Both the position numbers and the translations under genes were made by a program. A DNA stretch of 32,842 bases, from NCBI GenBank assembly GCA_947475655.1, contig CANJOB010000011.1, positions 1 through 32,842 on the forward strand. The letters are read 5' to 3'. Every line of letters starts with the position of its first letter. Positions within the stretch are counted from its first letter, which is position 1. The notes below the pieces were generated by a model that worked only from the letters and a program-made list of their open reading frames with translations, was not told the DNA's origin and made no database searches. This DNA comes from Caulobacterales bacterium (GTDB lineage Bacteria; Pseudomonadota; Alphaproteobacteria; Caulobacterales; Caulobacteraceae). Below are positions 24,573-29,691 of the stretch, piece after piece.

Positions 24573-24624
24573 CGCGTCCTTCGACTATCGACGGGTTGCC
24601 CCTTAGCGGACTCCATCACGCAAA

Positions 24625-24680
24625 AACCTGGGTCCAGGCCTGCGCCGGGATGAGCGGAGTGGGGACGATCAGTCCTTACA
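24625..24680. repeat. Intergenic repeat fragment flanking the mobile element
   Basis: The stretch with AACCTGGGTCC, CTGCGCCGGGATGAGCGG and GGGGACGATC has the wording of a widely dispersed alphaproteobacterial intergenic repeat. It lies just outside the left inverted repeat of the mobile element. Recognised from memory of the pattern only; no second copy is in the window. Confidence 0.4.
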
Positions 24681-24685
24681 CTTTT

Positions 24686-24707
24686 CCGGTATTATGGCGC
24701 AAACGCC
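24686..24707 (+). repeat. Left terminal inverted repeat (22 bp)
   Basis: It begins CCGGTATTATGG and ends CAAACGCC, and is perfectly complementary to 28460-28481. Similarity stops sharply outside and weakens at once inside, as expected for transposon ends. Confidence 0.85.
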
Positions 24708-24754
24708 ACGGGCTTTCTGAGGCGACGGTAGGGCTCCCGGCCTAAACTGGCCAG

Positions 24755-25219
24755 ATGGAACGCCCCAATACGGTTTCGGGACTTCTGGATAAGCGCCGGG
24801 AGATCGCGGGCCGGATCGAACACGCCCAAGGCCAGATGCGCCAGCTTGTCGTGGAACTGGACGCCTTGGACCTTGTGATCCGGCTATTCGATCCCGAGGC
24901 CATTCCGACCGGCTCCAAGCCCTACCCGCCGCGCGCCATAGCCTTCCGGGGGGAGATCAGCCGCGTGGTGCTGGATGCCCTCAGGGAAGCGCCTGGGCCT
25001 GTTGCTACCGCCTCCCTCGCCCAAGCCGTCATGGACGGGCGCGGGCTCAATCCCGACGACACAGAGATGCGCCGAACCCTCAAACAGCGCGTGCGTCTCT
25101 GCCTGCGCCGCATGAAGGCCAAGGGGACGCTGTTTGAGGTTCCGTTGGCCGGGGGCCGCAAGGGTTGGGCGTTGGCGAACTCGACCCCGTCGAGGGCGAG
25201 CGCGCTTTCGCAAAGCTAA
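24755..25219 (+). CDS. Unnamed coiled-coil plus winged-helix protein (mobile-element passenger)
   Basis: This 154-residue protein opens MERPNTVSGLLDKRREIAGR. Residues about 10-45 form a predicted coiled coil (KRREIAGRIEHAQGQMRQLV, then VELDALDLVIRLFDP), followed by a linker with PPRAIAFRGEISRVVL. A winged-helix-like domain comes next (LREAPGPVATASLAQAVMDG, LKQRVRLCLRRMKAKGTLFE, GRKGWALAN). I recall similar MxRPNTVSGL proteins across alphaproteobacteria as unnamed families. The architecture parallels the protein at 25566-26306, with which it is convergent. It probably binds DNA. It starts 48 bases inside the left inverted repeat; the ribosome-binding site is weak. Confidence 0.75.
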   Translation: MERPNTVSGLLDKRREIAGRIEHAQGQMRQLVVELDALDLVIRLFDPEAIPTGSKPYPPRAIAFRGEISRVVLDALREAPGPVATASLAQAVMDGRGLNPDDTEMRRTLKQRVRLCLRRMKAKGTLFEVPLAGGRKGWALANSTPSRASALSQS

Positions 25220-25296
25220 GTGACAGGTTGCTTCCTCCGGCAAAGCCTAAGGATTCCAAGGACTCTTGACTTTTAGGGTGAAGGCGCCGACCCTAT

Positions 25297-25313
25297 AAAC
25301 GCGCCAAGGCGCG
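25297..25313 (-). terminator. Weak terminator-like palindrome at the end of the putative RNA
   Basis: CGCGCCTTGGCGCG is followed by TTTAT on the minus strand: a compact 5- to 6-bp stem with a short U-rich tail. Its 5' half (25309-25313) is also part of the 11-bp stem 25309-25337, so the two hairpins cannot form together. Confidence 0.4.
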
Positions 25314-25337
25314 CCGGGGTGTGGACCCCCGACGCGC
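25309..25337 (-). other. 11-bp RNA stem-loop
   Basis: On the minus strand GCGCGTCGGGG (25337-25327) pairs with CCCCGGCGCGC (25319-25309), one G-U pair and ten Watson-Crick pairs, with a 7-nt loop. It is the most stable hairpin in the gap. Confidence 0.6.
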
Positions 25338-25382
25338 TCCGGTTCCTAACCCTTGTGGAAGGGGCCGGACTGCCCCGTTCGG

Positions 25383-25403
25383 TTATGCGGCGGCGTAGCA
25401 CAT
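25383..25403 (-). CDS. Six-codon micro-ORF MCYAAA with strong Shine-Dalgarno
   Basis: ATG TGC TAC GCC GCC GCA TAA, with AGGAG (25414-25410) separated by 6 bases from the ATG: a near-ideal initiation site. It lies about 90 bases downstream of the tRNA-like element on the same strand. The peptide end YAAA is reminiscent of the small nonpolar ends of tmRNA degradation tags (for example ..LAA), but a leader or regulatory peptide, or coincidence, is equally possible. No gene follows on this strand within 800 bases, which argues against a normal leader. Confidence 0.35.
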   Translation of the reverse strand: MCYAAA

Positions 25404-25492
25404 GGCGTTCTCCTATGGGGTGCCGATAGGCCCCTGTTGGTGGCGACCGAGGGATTGCGGTCAGATGCAATCGTCCCTCGGACGGAATGGAG

Positions 25493-25562
25493 TGGAGACG
25501 GGGGGAATCGAACCCCAGGGGAGACATTGCAGGTTGTTCCTGGGCACCAGCCCTCCGTCCCC
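25493..25562 (-). ncRNA. tRNA-like / tmRNA-acceptor-like element
   Basis: The minus strand gives a 7-bp acceptor stem GGGGACG (25562-25556) with CGTCTCC (25500-25494), one G-U pair, then A73. A D-arm-like GGGC-TGGT-GCCC follows, then a central GGAACA...TGTCTCC stem, and a T-arm with the canonical loop TTCGATT in TGGGGTTCGATTCCCCC. The T-arm plus acceptor end is what one expects at the 3' end of tmRNA, a favoured integration site. The anticodon region is not canonical (no U33 in the natural fold) and CCA is not encoded, so a functional tRNA is unlikely. It is a tRNA-like RNA or a captured tmRNA end. Confidence 0.5.
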
Positions 25563-25565
25563 AAA

Positions 25566-26306
25566 CTAGATCAAGGTGGCCTCCTCGTTTTGCGAGGGGG
25601 CCACTTCCGCGTCGGACAGGTAGTAACGCGTTCCGACGCGCTTGATTTGGGTGCTCTCAACCATGCGGCTGAGGCTGTTGTAGACGTAGTTTGGCCGGGC
25701 GCTGACCCGCGCGCCGTAGTCCGGGTGCGTACTGAGCTGGTCGCGTAGCTCACCCGCCGTCAGCCCCCGTGGGGCTCCGCTCAGCGCCTCCAAGACAACG
25801 GTCCGGAAATCGGGCTTGGTGTCCCTTGCGGCAGCGAACCTGGGATCAATCAATTCGCCGCTCTTCACCCTCTGATACACCGAGGGCGCATAGAGAAGGG
25901 TTCCGTGCTTCACGATCTCTTCCAAATCCACCAGCCGCTTGATCACCGTATATATGGCGCCGGGGCTTCGGACGATTTTCGCTCTTATCGCAGTTTGCTT
26001 CAGGTGGCTGCTCAGTTCCATGGTTGTTCTCCCGACTACCTGGAGGCCGAGCGAGATTTTCACGGCGGCGGCCAGGGTGGTGTTGTCGGTAATCACCCAC
26101 TCGGTCAGCGAGGCGTCCTTGGGCTTTTCGAGCGGCGCGGCATCTTGGGCCAAGACCATATAAGCCGCCACTTTCCCCTCTAGATGGGCTTTTCGCTCGG
26201 TGAGCCGGTCCAACTCCTGTACGATTTCCACGATTTCCCGGCGCCAATCAGCGAGCTGGTCAGCGGTCAGGCTCAGGACAAGGGATTCGGAATTGGAAGC
26301 GGTCAC
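25566..26306 (-). CDS. Coiled-coil protein with two winged-helix-like domains (mobile-element passenger)
   Basis: A 246-residue unrecognised protein. Residues 15-53 form a coiled coil (QLADWRREIVEIVQELDRLT, then ERKAHLEGKVAAY). Two winged-helix-like units follow: about 75-145 (LGLQVVGRTTMELSSHLKQT through IVKHGTLLYAPSVY) and about 165-233 (FRTVVLEALSGAPRGLTAGE through IKRVGTRYYLSDAEV). The layout suggests a DNA-binding dimer. The start is GTG at 26306 with no clear ribosome-binding site, so a different start is possible. It lies 137 bases downstream of the transposase on the same strand; its stop is 3 bases before the tRNA-like element, so read-through transcription into that RNA is likely. 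Confidence 0.72.
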   Translation of the reverse strand: MTASNSESLVLSLTADQLADWRREIVEIVQELDRLTERKAHLEGKVAAYMVLAQDAAPLEKPKDASLTEWVITDNTTLAAAVKISLGLQVVGRTTMELSSHLKQTAIRAKIVRSPGAIYTVIKRLVDLEEIVKHGTLLYAPSVYQRVKSGELIDPRFAAARDTKPDFRTVVLEALSGAPRGLTAGELRDQLSTHPDYGARVSARPNYVYNSLSRMVESTQIKRVGTRYYLSDAEVAPSQNEEATLI

Positions 26307-26443
26307 AGGCCATGGTTAGGTCTGATCCACCCCCTCTGTCAACACCCCCTCACTAGTCACCCGGTGGGGTGCGGGCTGGGAGTCGCTGGGCTCGGTACGG
26401 GAAATCCCATATCGCCGATTATTCCACGGAAGCTAAGCCGCGA

Positions 26444-27427
26444 CTACGCCGCCAGGTGGCGCTGCCAGTAGCCGGAGAAATCGACGCTGGGCTTGGCGGC
26501 CAGGGCCAGATGGGCGACCCGCTGGACTTGCTCACCATTGGCGACCCGGCGGCTATCCTCGCGCCACGCAGCCTCTTGGGCGTAGCGCAGCAGGTAGGGA
26601 CCGGAAATGTGGTGGTGAATGCCGACTTCGGCGCGGCGCAGACGGGAGAAGTATTCTTCGGCCCAATTGGTGCAGGCCCCGTCGAGCGAATAGGCCTCGC
26701 TGTGGTTGACGCGCTTCATTTCAAACTTGGCGTGCAGGCTGTCCCATGAGGAAGCCTCATCGGCATTCACGACCGTTCCGGGGGCGACATGAGACTTGAT
26801 GAAGGCGGTCGCGGCCTTCTCGCTACGGAACACCGCCGGGAGGGAGTTGCCGTCACGCTCGCGGATGATGACCACGACCCGGCGCTTGCCGGTTTGGTTT
26901 TCGGAAAGGCGGCGATCCCGGCGGTTCTCGACCTGATTAGCGGGCTTGGAGTAGCCGCCGAAGTAAGCGCCGTCGATCTCGACCGTCTCGCCTTCCCCGC
27001 CCAGCGTGCGCCCGCGCATTTCCAGCGCCATCGCCTCGCGGAGCTTATGGCAGAGGACAAAAGCGGCCTTATACGAGAGGCCCAGATCGCGGCTCATCGC
27101 CAACATGCTCTTGCCCTTCACTTCGTTACAGAAGATCGCGATGGCGGCCAGATACATGCGGAGCGGGAGCTTGTGAGAGGCGAACAGCGTCCCCGACGTG
27201 ATGGTGAAATCCTTGGCGCAGGCCCGGCAACGGAAGCGGGCCGAACCGTTGGGACGGCGGCAATCGTAGGCGTCGTCACTGGCGCAGAAAGGGCAAATCG
27301 GCTCCCCGTCCGTCTCCGGCCAGCGCACTTGGCGGAACGTCTTTTCGGCTTGATCGTCCGTCATGCGGAAAACCGTGGCGAGAGAGAGCGTCTTGGCGGC
27401 GCGGGAGAGAAGGAAGTGTTGGGCCAT
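26444..27427 (-). CDS. IS1595 family (ISXO2-like) transposase
   Basis: This 327-residue transposase has an N-terminal zinc ribbon (C-x2-C at 45/48 in ICPFCASDD; C-x2-C at 67/70 in FRCRACAKDFTITSGTLF) and an ISXO2-type DDE/N domain: Asp152 in VEIDGAYFGGYS, Asp223 in TVVNADEASSWDSL, and the third acidic/Asn position in CTNWAEEYFSRLRR. The catalytic core appears intact and the frame is full length, so it may be active. The frame allows a TTG at 27433; ATG at 27427 is preferred although the ribosome-binding site is weak. It is divergent from the DUF6471-like gene across an operator-rich 115-bp region. Confidence 0.93.
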   Translation of the reverse strand: MAQHFLLSRAAKTLSLATVFRMTDDQAEKTFRQVRWPETDGEPICPFCASDDAYDCRRPNGSARFRCRACAKDFTITSGTLFASHKLPLRMYLAAIAIFCNEVKGKSMLAMSRDLGLSYKAAFVLCHKLREAMALEMRGRTLGGEGETVEIDGAYFGGYSKPANQVENRRDRRLSENQTGKRRVVVIIRERDGNSLPAVFRSEKAATAFIKSHVAPGTVVNADEASSWDSLHAKFEMKRVNHSEAYSLDGACTNWAEEYFSRLRRAEVGIHHHISGPYLLRYAQEAAWREDSRRVANGEQVQRVAHLALAAKPSVDFSGYWQRHLAA

Positions 27428-27542
27428 TTGCAATCACATCTGTTCGTTTGGCAAACACATGTGTATGGAAGGCGGCGATCACTTGCAATAGGAAATCGAA
27501 CAGATATGTTCGTTTTCTGTCCGAACCGATCAGGAAACGATT
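27428..27542. promoter_or_regulatory. Divergent promoter/operator region with repeated TGTTCG sites
   Basis: A perfect palindrome CGAACA-GATA-TGTTCG lies at 27497-27512; another TGTTCGTTT half-site lies at 27441-27449, with a partial complementary arm. TTGCAAT occurs twice (27428-27434 and 27483-27489), each time ahead of a TGTTCG site, suggesting a duplicated control module. The natural candidate binder is the small protein encoded at 27543; this is inference. Confidence 0.55.
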
Positions 27543-27770
27543 ATGGCCGCATCAAGCGACGAATGGGCCGACCTGGCCAAACGCACGCTCAAGGGCGAGA
27601 TGGCCCGTGCTGGCGTGCGTCATGGTGAGTTGGCCAAGCGCCTAACCGAAATGGGATTGCCGGAAACTGAGGCTTCCGTTCAGGTCAAAATCAACCGGGG
27701 GGCTTTTCCGGCTTGGTTTCTACTGGCGGCGATGAAGGCGCTGGGGACGACGACGCTACGTCTGGACTGA
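27543..27770 (+). CDS. DUF6471-like small HTH protein
   Basis: A 75-residue protein, MAASSDEWADLAKRTLKGEM, then ARAGVRHGELAKRLTEMG, ASVQVKINRGAFPAWFLLAA and MKALGTTTLRLD. I recognise it as a DUF6471-type protein: a single compact HTH-like domain often found beside IS1595-family transposases. It probably controls transposase expression through the palindrome upstream. ATG at 27543 with AGGA 8 bases before it. Its last 80 bases overlap, tail to tail, the end of the membrane-protein gene on the other strand. Confidence 0.82.
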   Translation: MAASSDEWADLAKRTLKGEMARAGVRHGELAKRLTEMGLPETEASVQVKINRGAFPAWFLLAAMKALGTTTLRLD

Positions 27771-28416
27771 TGAAGCCGAACAGGAACATGGGCCGCTCGC
27801 CCTGGGCTTCCGCGTAGGCTTTCAGATTTTCCCGGCTCACCCGCACATAGTGGTTGATGGGCCTATCTACGAAGTGGGCCAGCGGATTCGTGTCCGGCTC
27901 GGGTATCAGTTCCTTACTCAAAATGGCGGCCTTCAATCGCGCCATGCAGGCCTGAGCGGGCGATGAAAGAAGGAGATAGGTGGCTGGGGGGATGATTTCG
28001 ACCCAAAGAGAGGCCGCCTGCCAAAGCTCGAACGAGCGAGACTTGGACCAGTTTAGACTAGCCTCCCGAGCCGTAGCCCTTTTCTGCTCGCGTAGGGCGT
28101 CAACAACAGATGGGCCGATAGCGGGCGTAATCACCGGGACGGGGTGCTGCGTAACATGTCGAATCACATAGTCCGCGAGGGCGAGCCACACGATGCCCTG
28201 TAAGATCAGAAGCCACCCCCACCAGGGCAAAAGATGCGATCCGCCCATCACCATTTCCCCGATGGAGGGCAGATAGTGGTTTGGCCAAACTTGGGAAAAA
28301 ACACCGCTGAACGTGTCGTAGCTGGCCAGTAGAAACCATCCGCCGAGCGCGAGGCGAAACCACCACTGATCCCAGAGGATTTCCTTAGCCGCCTTGAAAC
28401 GGGAGCGCAGGTCCAT
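27691..28416 (-). CDS. Membrane protein, mobile-element passenger, function unknown
   Basis: A 241-residue unrecognised protein. Two N-terminal hydrophobic segments are clear (FRLALGGWFLLASYDTF near 20-37; WWGWLLILQGIVWLALADYV near 65-84). A cytoplasmic helical region follows (VVDALREQKRATAREASLNW), and a mixed hydrophobic stretch (LWVEIIPPATYLLLSS). The C-terminus is Pro/Ser-rich (SSPAPSSPPVETKPEKPPG) and probably disordered. ATG at 28416, 43 bases inside the right inverted repeat. It overlaps the DUF6471-like gene by 80 bases at the 3' ends. No catalytic motif seen. Confidence 0.7.
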   Translation of the reverse strand: MDLRSRFKAAKEILWDQWWFRLALGGWFLLASYDTFSGVFSQVWPNHYLPSIGEMVMGGSHLLPWWGWLLILQGIVWLALADYVIRHVTQHPVPVITPAIGPSVVDALREQKRATAREASLNWSKSRSFELWQAASLWVEIIPPATYLLLSSPAQACMARLKAAILSKELIPEPDTNPLAHFVDRPINHYVRVSRENLKAYAEAQGERPMFLFGFISPDVASSSPAPSSPPVETKPEKPPG

Positions 28417-28459
28417 CCCCGGATCATTGCCCGGACTCCGAACTCACGGCAACGCTTCT

Positions 28460-28481
28460 GGCGTTTGCGCCATAATACCGG
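28460..28481 (-). repeat. Right terminal inverted repeat (22 bp)
   Basis: Perfect reverse complement of 24686-24707. The base-for-base match over 22 positions at the outer edge of a transposase-bearing segment defines the element's right end. Confidence 0.85.
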
Positions 28482-28510
28482 GCTAATCGCTATCTGCTGT
28501 GTGCATGGGT

Positions 28511-28529
28511 CGTCGGATCAAGTCCGACG
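28511..28529. repeat. CGTCGGA...TCCGACG palindrome, intergenic repeat
   Basis: A 7-bp perfect dyad around TCAAG, just downstream of the aminotransferase stop and outside the right end of the element. The surrounding GGGTCGTCGGATCAAGTCC wording is typical of dispersed alphaproteobacterial intergenic palindromes. There is no U-tract. Confidence 0.55.
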
Positions 28530-28536
28530 ATGACTA

Positions 28537-29691
28537 CTAGTAGGAGCGTATCGCCCCGATGATCCGGTCCTGATCCGCCGCCTCCAGATACGGGTGCATC
28601 GGCAGGGCCAGCACCCGGCCCGCCGCGGCCTCGGTCACCGGCAGACCGCCGGGGCCGCGCTCAAAGCCGGCGTAGGGCCCCTGGATGTGCATCGGCGCCG
28701 GGTAATAGACGGCGGTGGGGATGCATTCGCTTTTCAGGTGCGCGGCCAGGCCGTCGCGGTCGGGGTGCTCGATCACATACTGCGCCCAGACCGACTGGCC
28801 GCCCTCGATCACCTTCGGGGCCTGGGCCTTCGAGCCGGCCAGGCCGGCGGCGTAGCGCCGCGCCACCGCCTCGCGCAGCACGATCTCCTCAGGAAAAATG
28901 GCCAGTTTCTCTATCAGGATCGCCGCCTGGATCGTGTCCAGCCGCGAATTCATGCCGATGCGGGTGTTGAGGTATTTCGGGTCATGGCCGCCGGTGTCGA
29001 TCCCGTCGCCGGCCACCGCCTTGCCGTGCACGCGCAGGCTGTCCATCAGGTTCCACAAGCCCTGATCCTTGGCTAGCACAGCCCCGCCGTCGCCGTAGCA
29101 GCCGAGCGGCTTGGCCGGGAAGAAGCTGGTGGTGGTCACATCGGCCCAGTGGATCGGGTGATGGCCATTGAGCGTGCAGCCGAAGCCCTGAGCGCTGTCG
29201 GCGATCAGCTTCAGCCCGTGACGGTCGCAGACCGCTTTCAGGGCCGGGTAGTCGGCGCTCTGGCCAAACAGGTCGACGGCGATCACGGCCGCGGGCTTGA
29301 GCCGCCCCGCCGCCTTCACCGCGACCACAGCCGCCTCCAGCGCCGCCGGATCGAGGCAGTAGGTATCGGCCAGCACATCGACGAACACCGGCTCGGCGTT
29401 GGTCCAGGGCACGATTTCCGCCGTGGCGGTGAAGGTGAAGGAGGGGCAGAACACCGCGTCCCCCGCGCCGATGCCCCAGGCCATCAGCGGCAGGGCCAGG
29501 GCGTCGGTGCCGTTGGCGCACGACAGGGCCAGGGGGGCTTGGCCGAACGCCGCCAGCTTGCCTTCGAACGCGCGCACCTCCGGCCCCATCACATAGCCGC
29601 CGTGGGCCAGCACCTTGGCGATGGCGGCGTCGATGGCCGGCTTGATGCGGCGCTGCTGGGCGGCGAGGTCGATGAAGGGCAGGTTGCTCAT
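28537..29691 (-). CDS. DegT/DnrJ/EryC1/StrS family PLP-dependent sugar aminotransferase
   Basis: A 384-residue fold-type I aminotransferase that would transfer an amino group to a nucleotide-linked keto-sugar for surface polysaccharide. Seen: LPFIDLAAQQ start, CANGTDALALPLMAWGIGAG, PSFTFTATAEIV, Asp165 in KLIADSAQGFG contacting the cofactor pyridine, and the Schiff-base Lys194 in TSFFPAKPLGCYGDGGAV. Further family blocks are RIGMNSRLDTIQAAIL and VYYPAPMHIQ. ATG at 29691 matches the family start, although the ribosome-binding site is poor and a GTG at 29730 is in frame. No sugar nucleotidyltransferase or glycosyltransferase is beside it, so the exact sugar is unknown. Confidence 0.92.
   Translation of the reverse strand: MSNLPFIDLAAQQRRIKPAIDAAIAKVLAHGGYVMGPEVRAFEGKLAAFGQAPLALSCANGTDALALPLMAWGIGAGDAVFCPSFTFTATAEIVPWTNAEPVFVDVLADTYCLDPAALEAAVVAVKAAGRLKPAAVIAVDLFGQSADYPALKAVCDRHGLKLIADSAQGFGCTLNGHHPIHWADVTTTSFFPAKPLGCYGDGGAVLAKDQGLWNLMDSLRVHGKAVAGDGIDTGGHDPKYLNTRIGMNSRLDTIQAAILIEKLAIFPEEIVLREAVARRYAAGLAGSKAQAPKVIEGGQSVWAQYVIEHPDRDGLAAHLKSECIPTAVYYPAPMHIQGPYAGFERGPGGLPVTEAAAGRVLALPMHPYLEAADQDRIIGAIRSY

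Follow-up and report, generated by a model that had tools for sequence, protein, structure and literature searches.

Does a transposon that carries a tRNA-like RNA hold it as a chance passenger, or as part of a defined unit? This question is raised by a 32,842-nucleotide stretch of DNA from a Caulobacterales bacterium (assembly GCA_947475655.1, contig CANJOB010000011.1; hereafter the window), in which a first-pass annotation had placed an IS1595-type transposon and had proposed that five of its loci, encoding two winged-helix proteins (WH1 and WH2), a DUF6471-like protein, a membrane protein and a tRNA-like RNA, may form one cargo module. That grouping had to be abandoned, as the DUF6471 protein and WH1 belong to the core of the transposon lineage, and a tblastn search of the 80 nearest loci (E 1e-3) matched neither WH2 nor the putative membrane protein. 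The element contains a two-part unit, made up of the WH2 gene and a structured RNA that begins 3 nt downstream of its stop codon (Table 1), and this RNA belongs to a covarying tRNA-like family with links to one named transposon family, to a protein neighbour that recurs and to a miniature open reading frame (ORF). We found no description of the RNA, of the pair of winged-helix gene and RNA, or of a DUF6471 plus winged-helix core with tRNA-like cargo in the open-licence literature searched.

A winged-helix gene followed by a tRNA-like RNA

Both proposed winged-helix proteins are seen as such in AlphaFold2 models, that of WH2 (246 residues) having a mean predicted local distance difference test score (pLDDT) of 83. 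The three best Foldseek matches of the WH2 model are SelB winged-helix fragments (E 0.004-0.027), one of them from a structure in complex with selenocysteine insertion sequence (SECIS) RNA, and a WH2 homolog touches Pfam SelB-wing_2 below the cut-off (E 0.0044); SelB was absent among the 50 matches listed in a further comparison. These likenesses are leads for RNA binding by WH2. Homologs of WH2 were detected in 3 of 299 genomes of the bacterial family, the window's included; the other two are from the same genus, and there the homologs (L004/L159 and L005/L160) adjoin other IS1595 transposases.

The first 70 nt of the window RNA form a cloverleaf of the 8/4 type; beyond it come a hairpin and then a 6-codon ORF preceded by a Shine-Dalgarno site. 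The earlier call of a tRNA-like RNA is upheld by the score against the Rfam transfer-messenger RNA (tmRNA) model RF00023 (E 5.6e-7 in 151 nt; 20.7 bits, with a gathering score of 47) and by the covarying family described below; ARAGORN did not report it.

A covarying family of nine RNAs

Homologous RNAs were sought with a tRNA covariance model (R1) and with a family model (R2) trained on the window RNA and the L004/L159 RNA. The latter lies directly after the WH2 homolog (R1 match at L004:2035-2110), is 65% identical to the window RNA over 196 nt with the same fold, and matches the tmRNA model at E 2.8e-8; searches with R1 and R2 found no such RNA at L005/L160. Across 390 genomes of the bacterial family, R2 revealed eight strong places in eight genomes, two used in training and six new (G106, G293, G053, G796, G089 and G295; 72-104 bits), over a background of 28-39 bits that we take for ordinary tRNAs and that accounts for nearly all of the matches at E 0.01 present in 253 of the 390 genomes. 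A ninth member (L086; 54 bits with R2) comes from Methylocapsa acidiphila B2, a genome that is not in the match listing of the 390-genome search. Of 75 genomes of the window's genus, two contain the 15-mer GCCACCAACAGGGGC, each within the tRNA-like RNA.

A single cloverleaf parse, which sought UGCA and the T-arm string and found both in every member, fits all nine RNAs, with an 8-bp acceptor, a 4-bp T-stem, the T-loop UUCGAYU, a short D-arm, a variable region of 2-4 nt and an anticodon-like arm. This arm is built from an outer stem and three inner pairs, has a pyrimidine bulging out on the 3' side, and closes in an 8-nt loop whose positions 4-7 read UGCA. The whole cloverleaf is the free-energy minimum in seven members, L086 showing altered D-arm pairing and L186 a different fold. 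In all nine, pair 3:70 is G:U and position 73 is A; CCA is encoded in three. The G3:U70 pair is an identity element for alanyl-tRNA synthetase (AlaRS), and UGC, if taken as the anticodon, would be alanine's.

Over the acceptor, the T-stem and two later hairpins, 96.9% of cells are paired, compared to 54-72% in sliding controls, in an alignment that was fitted to the model's structure and leans towards it, two of the nine members having trained the model. Nine pairs carry double changes (as high in 1 of 500 shuffles), and so do 26 cells (8.2 ± 2.3 in shuffles, with 0 of 500 as high); in the hairpin 3' of the cloverleaf, double changes affect 5 of 7 pairs. A visual check of the aligned members is possible for the acceptor and T-arm, and the nine RNAs are a covarying family. 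Downstream, AGGAG and an ORF of 6-8 codons are found in all members except L186 and L086; the seven peptides read MCYAAA, MCYAVS, MWQAEARP, VWQAKARH, MWQAEARH, MWQTVILD and MWQAHRR, each starting with AUG or GUG behind its own Shine-Dalgarno site. By eye, L182 joins a tRNA-like domain of the window type to a downstream part of the L159 type, so that the two RNA halves seem to recombine.

The pair recurs on other IS1595 transposons

A winged-helix-type gene lies 5' of the RNA in seven of the nine members, the RNA starting 3 nt after the stop codon in the window, 5 in L182 and L184, 6 in L159 and L181, 33 in L185 and 40 in L183. These genes encode proteins of 157-282 aa of the coiled-coil/winged-helix type, which was modelled for the window WH2 and judged from sequence and loose alignment (identities 14-26%) for the others. 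At L086 the RNA begins 13 nt after a P63C gene, and at L186 no winged-helix-type gene was found before it. An IS1595 transposase stands beside the RNA in the window, L159, L182, L183, L184, L185 and L086 (7/9) and was not found near it in L181 and L186. The window transposase shares 28-32% identity with those of L159 and L182-L185 and 57% with that of L086; the L159 enzyme is 34-80% identical to those of L182-L185. What recurs on other IS1595 backbones is the WH2-type gene with its tRNA-like RNA, and the recurrence of cargo raised by the first-pass annotation holds for this pair but not for the whole set. The best explanation is that IS1595 elements whose transposases differ greatly have exchanged the pair.

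Three elements that carry the RNA have mapped ends and 8-bp target duplications: L183 (3,273 bp; repeat 20/20, duplication 8/8), L185 (2,133 bp, comprising winged-helix gene, RNA and transposase; 18/20 and 8/8) and L086 (20/20 and 8/8). The ends of L159 are candidates (16/20 and 6/8), L182 has a left end only and L184 no convincing ends. Empty insertion sites, also raised at first pass, exist for L185: when its joined flanks were searched in 25 genomes of its genus, the site ran unbroken across the junction in seven others (G029, G141, G068, G109, G153, G094 and G075), with 73-86% identity over 57-88 bases, of which only 19 lie left of the junction in six genomes and 40 in G109. G089 holds the two halves of the site, overlapping at the duplication; in G133, G042, G099 and G104 the matches stop within ~6 bases of the junction, and 13 of the 25 genomes gave no match.

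What the pair may do

Taken as a whole, the reading of this locus as an IS1595 transposon with a WH2-RNA unit, whose RNA is processed, charged with alanine and bound by WH2 and tunes the element, stands in our judgement at even chances. The RNA would derive from the WH2 transcript, be trimmed by tRNA-processing enzymes, receive CCA where the gene lacks it, and be charged with alanine by the host AlaRS. We infer this charging because all nine members keep G3:U70 and A73, whereas the adjacent pair 5:68 varies freely (A:U, C:G, U:G, G:C and U:A); G3:U70 is given as an AlaRS identity element in PMC7609411. More weakly, the winged-helix protein might bind the bulged arm to form a ribonucleoprotein, which could sense or tap the host's alanyl-tRNA or translation state and so tune expression or movement of the element, and the short ORF might be a translated read-out. 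That a transposon-borne ribonucleoprotein of winged-helix protein and alanylated 8/4 tRNA-like RNA with a translated mini-ORF is traded among IS1595 transposons, coupling them to host alanyl-tRNA or ribosome state, is a tentative proposal about which we are more doubtful than confident. If true, it would be a concrete example for the suspected transposon home of irregular tRNAs, and the member in Methylocapsa acidiphila B2 makes charging, processing, protein binding and an effect on transposition directly testable.

Known systems share parts of this arrangement. Like allo-tRNAs (8/4 and 9/3), the nine RNAs have a 12-bp acceptor branch, 8/4 throughout, and some reported allo-tRNAs carry G3:U70 and insert alanine; we do not file the family there because its variable region has 2-4 nt in every member, without a longer variable arm, and it differs further in its bulged anticodon-like arm with an 8-nt loop, in the winged-helix-type gene 5' (7/9) and in the Shine-Dalgarno-led ORF 3' (7/9). 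SECIS RNA has a bulge. The tandem winged helices of WH2, with a bulged hairpin as possible ligand, resemble SelB and SECIS, but the WH2 model is without an EF-Tu-like domain, the fold scores are weak and there is no known link to selenocysteine.

The RNA could instead be a decoy or spare tRNA, a tRNA mimic that would soak up, or repair, what tRNA-attacking toxins or defence nucleases do, with the winged-helix gene only regulating the operon. This would suit the tRNA-like genes present in 14 of 100 transposase units, their bodies varied and their anticodon arms often disordered, as well as the defence-type Abi_2 gene beside the core genes of L058; we nonetheless regard it as rather unlikely, as a single special shape persists throughout the nine-member family (8/4, bulge and UGCA loop, with the Shine-Dalgarno-led ORF in seven) and no toxin family in Pfam or NCBIfam occurs among the element's own genes. 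The fold could also serve only for cleavage by RNase P and RNase Z, maturing or stabilising the winged-helix mRNA and separating the short ORF from it. Such a 3'-end device is suggested by the position of the RNA straight behind the stop codon, and after a terminator-like hairpin in L183 and L185, yet processing alone needs no invariant G3:U70, A73 and UGCA, which leaves this explanation unlikely.

Kinship with tmRNA, including the permuted alphaproteobacterial form, comes to mind since a single RNA combines a tRNA domain of alanine type, G3:U70 included, with a short reading frame. A relic or offshoot of permuted tmRNA, captured by the transposon and with its tag frame modified into the short ORF, would explain why the tmRNA model matches the tRNA-like part and why Rfam's permuted tmRNA model aligns T-arm/acceptor, spacer and a later GGGG (E 0.047), the same order as in the host tmRNA (CUCCACCA-spacer-GGGGCC). 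However, the acceptor strand covaries with the upstream GGGGNNGG and not with the near-constant downstream GGGGCC, the cloverleaf is contiguous and has an anticodon-like arm, the short ORF has its own Shine-Dalgarno site and start codon, and a normal tmRNA is kept in 3/3 genomes of the genus checked; such descent is quite improbable. Membership in the tmRNA family itself was rejected, with scores of 20.7 and 24.6 bits against a gathering score of 47 and a short ORF with its own start signal. Least credible of all is a chance entrapment of dead tRNA pseudogenes in transposons: broken anticodon arms do occur in several tRNA-like genes that other elements of the lineage carry, but the strong covariation and the invariant identity pair of the nine-member family speak against it.

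The transposon, its ends and its core genes

The sequence contains the perfect 22-bp inverted repeat that had been reported to bound the transposon. As a bare string the perfect repeat measures 23 bp (24686-24708 / 28459-28481), and the ends initially assigned, 24686 and 28481, each lie 1 bp too far out; we count 22 bp, from CGG, because the target duplication in relatives stops right before CGG.

Table 1. Coordinates of features in the window and of sites where related elements end near host tRNA genes
Feature	Position	Strand	Evidence
Left terminal inverted repeat CGGTATTATGGCGCAAACGCCA	24687..24708	+	Perfect repeat; relatives have this arm next to 8-bp target duplications
WH1, coiled coil and winged helix, core gene at far end	24755..25219	+	50 ORF rows; AlphaFold2 model
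Short ORF MCYAAA*	25383..25403	-	Counterparts in family
Shine-Dalgarno AGGAG of short ORF	25410..25414	-	Present in 7/9 family members
TCGCCACCAACAGGGGCC, identical in window and L004/L159	25429..25446	-	Pairwise comparison
Hairpin 3' of tRNA-like domain	25446..25489	-	z -3.25 for 25435-25500
8/4 tRNA-like domain, acceptor GGGGACGG/CCGUCUCC, G3:U70, A73, 4-bp T-stem, bulged anticodon-like arm with loop ACCUGCAA	25490..25562	-	Minimum-free-energy cloverleaf; covarying family; RF00023
WH2, coiled coil and two winged helices, first half of protein-RNA pair	25566..26306	-	AlphaFold2 model; homologs
IS1595-family transposase, zinc ribbon and DDE domain	26444..27433	-	PF12762, PF12760, NF033547
DUF6471 protein, 75 aa, core gene divergent from transposase	27543..27770	+	PF20075 E 2.8e-23
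241-aa protein, possibly membrane-bound	27691..28416	-	One hydrophobic stretch; overlaps DUF6471 ORF on opposite strand
Right terminal inverted repeat	28459..28480	-	Perfect repeat; shared with relatives
Sites where elements end near host tRNA genes	L030 4551-4634; L059 5874-5958; L085 8954-9035; L097 6530-6632

The transposase, correctly recognised as ISXO2-type, matches PF12762 (ISXO2-type DDE; E 4.7e-40), PF12760 (N-terminal zinc ribbon; E 1.6e-10) and NF033547 (143 bits, cut-off 75); DDE domain, zinc ribbon, terminal inverted repeats and the 8-bp target duplication of the lineage are all IS1595 features. Relatives were fetched by transposase (the best 80 of 125 loci and 20 more stretches), and in them CGGTATTATGGCGCAAACGCCA or its variants abut 8-bp target duplications exactly. 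Duplications of 8/8 were found in 68 of 105 transposase rows, the window row counted, and in 62 of 99 after removal of six rows, namely the second rows of L016, L034, L048 and L055 (repeat element or nested insertion sequence) and the rows L102 (a duplicate of L035) and L103 (a duplicate of L073); in the other rows convincing ends were not detected, often because of a contig end close by. With the same or a similar repeat flanked in this way in dozens of relatives, the repeat belongs to the transposase. No further copies, with up to 3 mismatches allowed, were found in the window's own assembly (83% complete), which holds the pair only.

The window copy is without an 8-bp duplication (CACTTTTC versus GGCTAATC at its flanks). 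Possible causes are a rearrangement, the loss of a flank or faulty assembly, and the absence is a mark of this copy's insertion history, not of the IS1595 family. The flanks (24620-24680 and 28500-28540) look by eye like dispersed palindromic repeats, and recombination between them might have removed the duplication.

DUF6471 occurs in 71 ORF rows of the lineage and WH1 in 50 (window and duplicates counted), DUF6471 being divergent from the transposase and WH1 convergent at the far end; because both recur with the transposase, we treat them as core and not as cargo. The WH1 model (mean pLDDT 87) has a helix at residues 5-45 and then a winged helix at 62-140. As first supposed, the element is an IS1595 transposon that bears cargo, and the core of its lineage comprises the transposase, DUF6471 and the winged-helix protein at the end. 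Two stretches differ among copies, one running from the transposase to WH1 and the other from DUF6471 to the left end, and genes in these stretches or adjoining the core include Abi_2 (L058), ORF6N (L032) and P63C (L086). For the 241-aa protein, a single strongly hydrophobic stretch (about residues 62-85) is all that stands of the membrane-protein label, which is weak because there is no match in Pfam or NCBIfam.

Elements of the ISNha5 group are 3.4-7.9 kb long, with CGGnnTT termini, and carry passengers. The window element shares with IS1595/ISNha5 the zinc ribbon and ISXO2-type DDE domain and, in its relatives, the 8-bp duplications, but its lineage differs in the conserved DUF6471 and winged-helix core and in the tRNA-like RNA cargo; ISNha5 is named among the IS1595 groups in PMC8101967.

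tRNA-like genes and insertion sites across the lineage

With R1 and R2 combined, the 14 units with tRNA-like genes are the window, L010 (second unit), L026, L031, L032 (second unit), L036, L037, L045, L049, L055, L058, L080, L086 and L092, the total of 100 being the 105 transposase rows less L016b, L034b, L048b, L102 and L103. R1 by itself is weak for the window (19.8 bits, E 0.042) and L086 (E 0.025), which both rest on R2. Seven units have mapped ends with 8/8 duplications (L026, L036, L049, L055, L080, L086 and L092) and the window has its repeat only; the other six were placed by position beside core genes, their ends being unmapped, L037 and L058 most weakly (~300 nt beyond DUF6471). A custom scan of the 80 loci and the window gave 21 matches, host tRNAs included, scoring at least as high as the window RNA, versus 0.2 per block-shuffled set, and many of the lineage's tRNA-like genes have mismatched or disordered anticodon arms. 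A second tRNA-like type lacks an encoded CCA and is flanked by the transposase on one side and a small gene on the other in L032 (1736-2206), L049 (7048-7502) and L080 (4428-4833); the small gene of L080 touches RHH_1 (E 0.012, below the cut-off), that of L032 resembles this family, and that of L049 is without a Pfam match. The tRNA-like gene of L010 (3890-3982), which overlaps the end of a 167-aa ORF, has in the anticodon position a long stem (8 bp predicted) with a large loop.

The elements of L008, L016, L028 and L034, in four different genomes, share the identical 8-bp target duplication GGATAGTC, and L077 has GGACAGTC, which suggests insertion into a recurring sequence. Four lineage elements, of which L097 is without a clear duplication, terminate close to the 3' end of a host tRNA gene, at a distance of 6-12 bp (Table 1), hinting at a target preference there.

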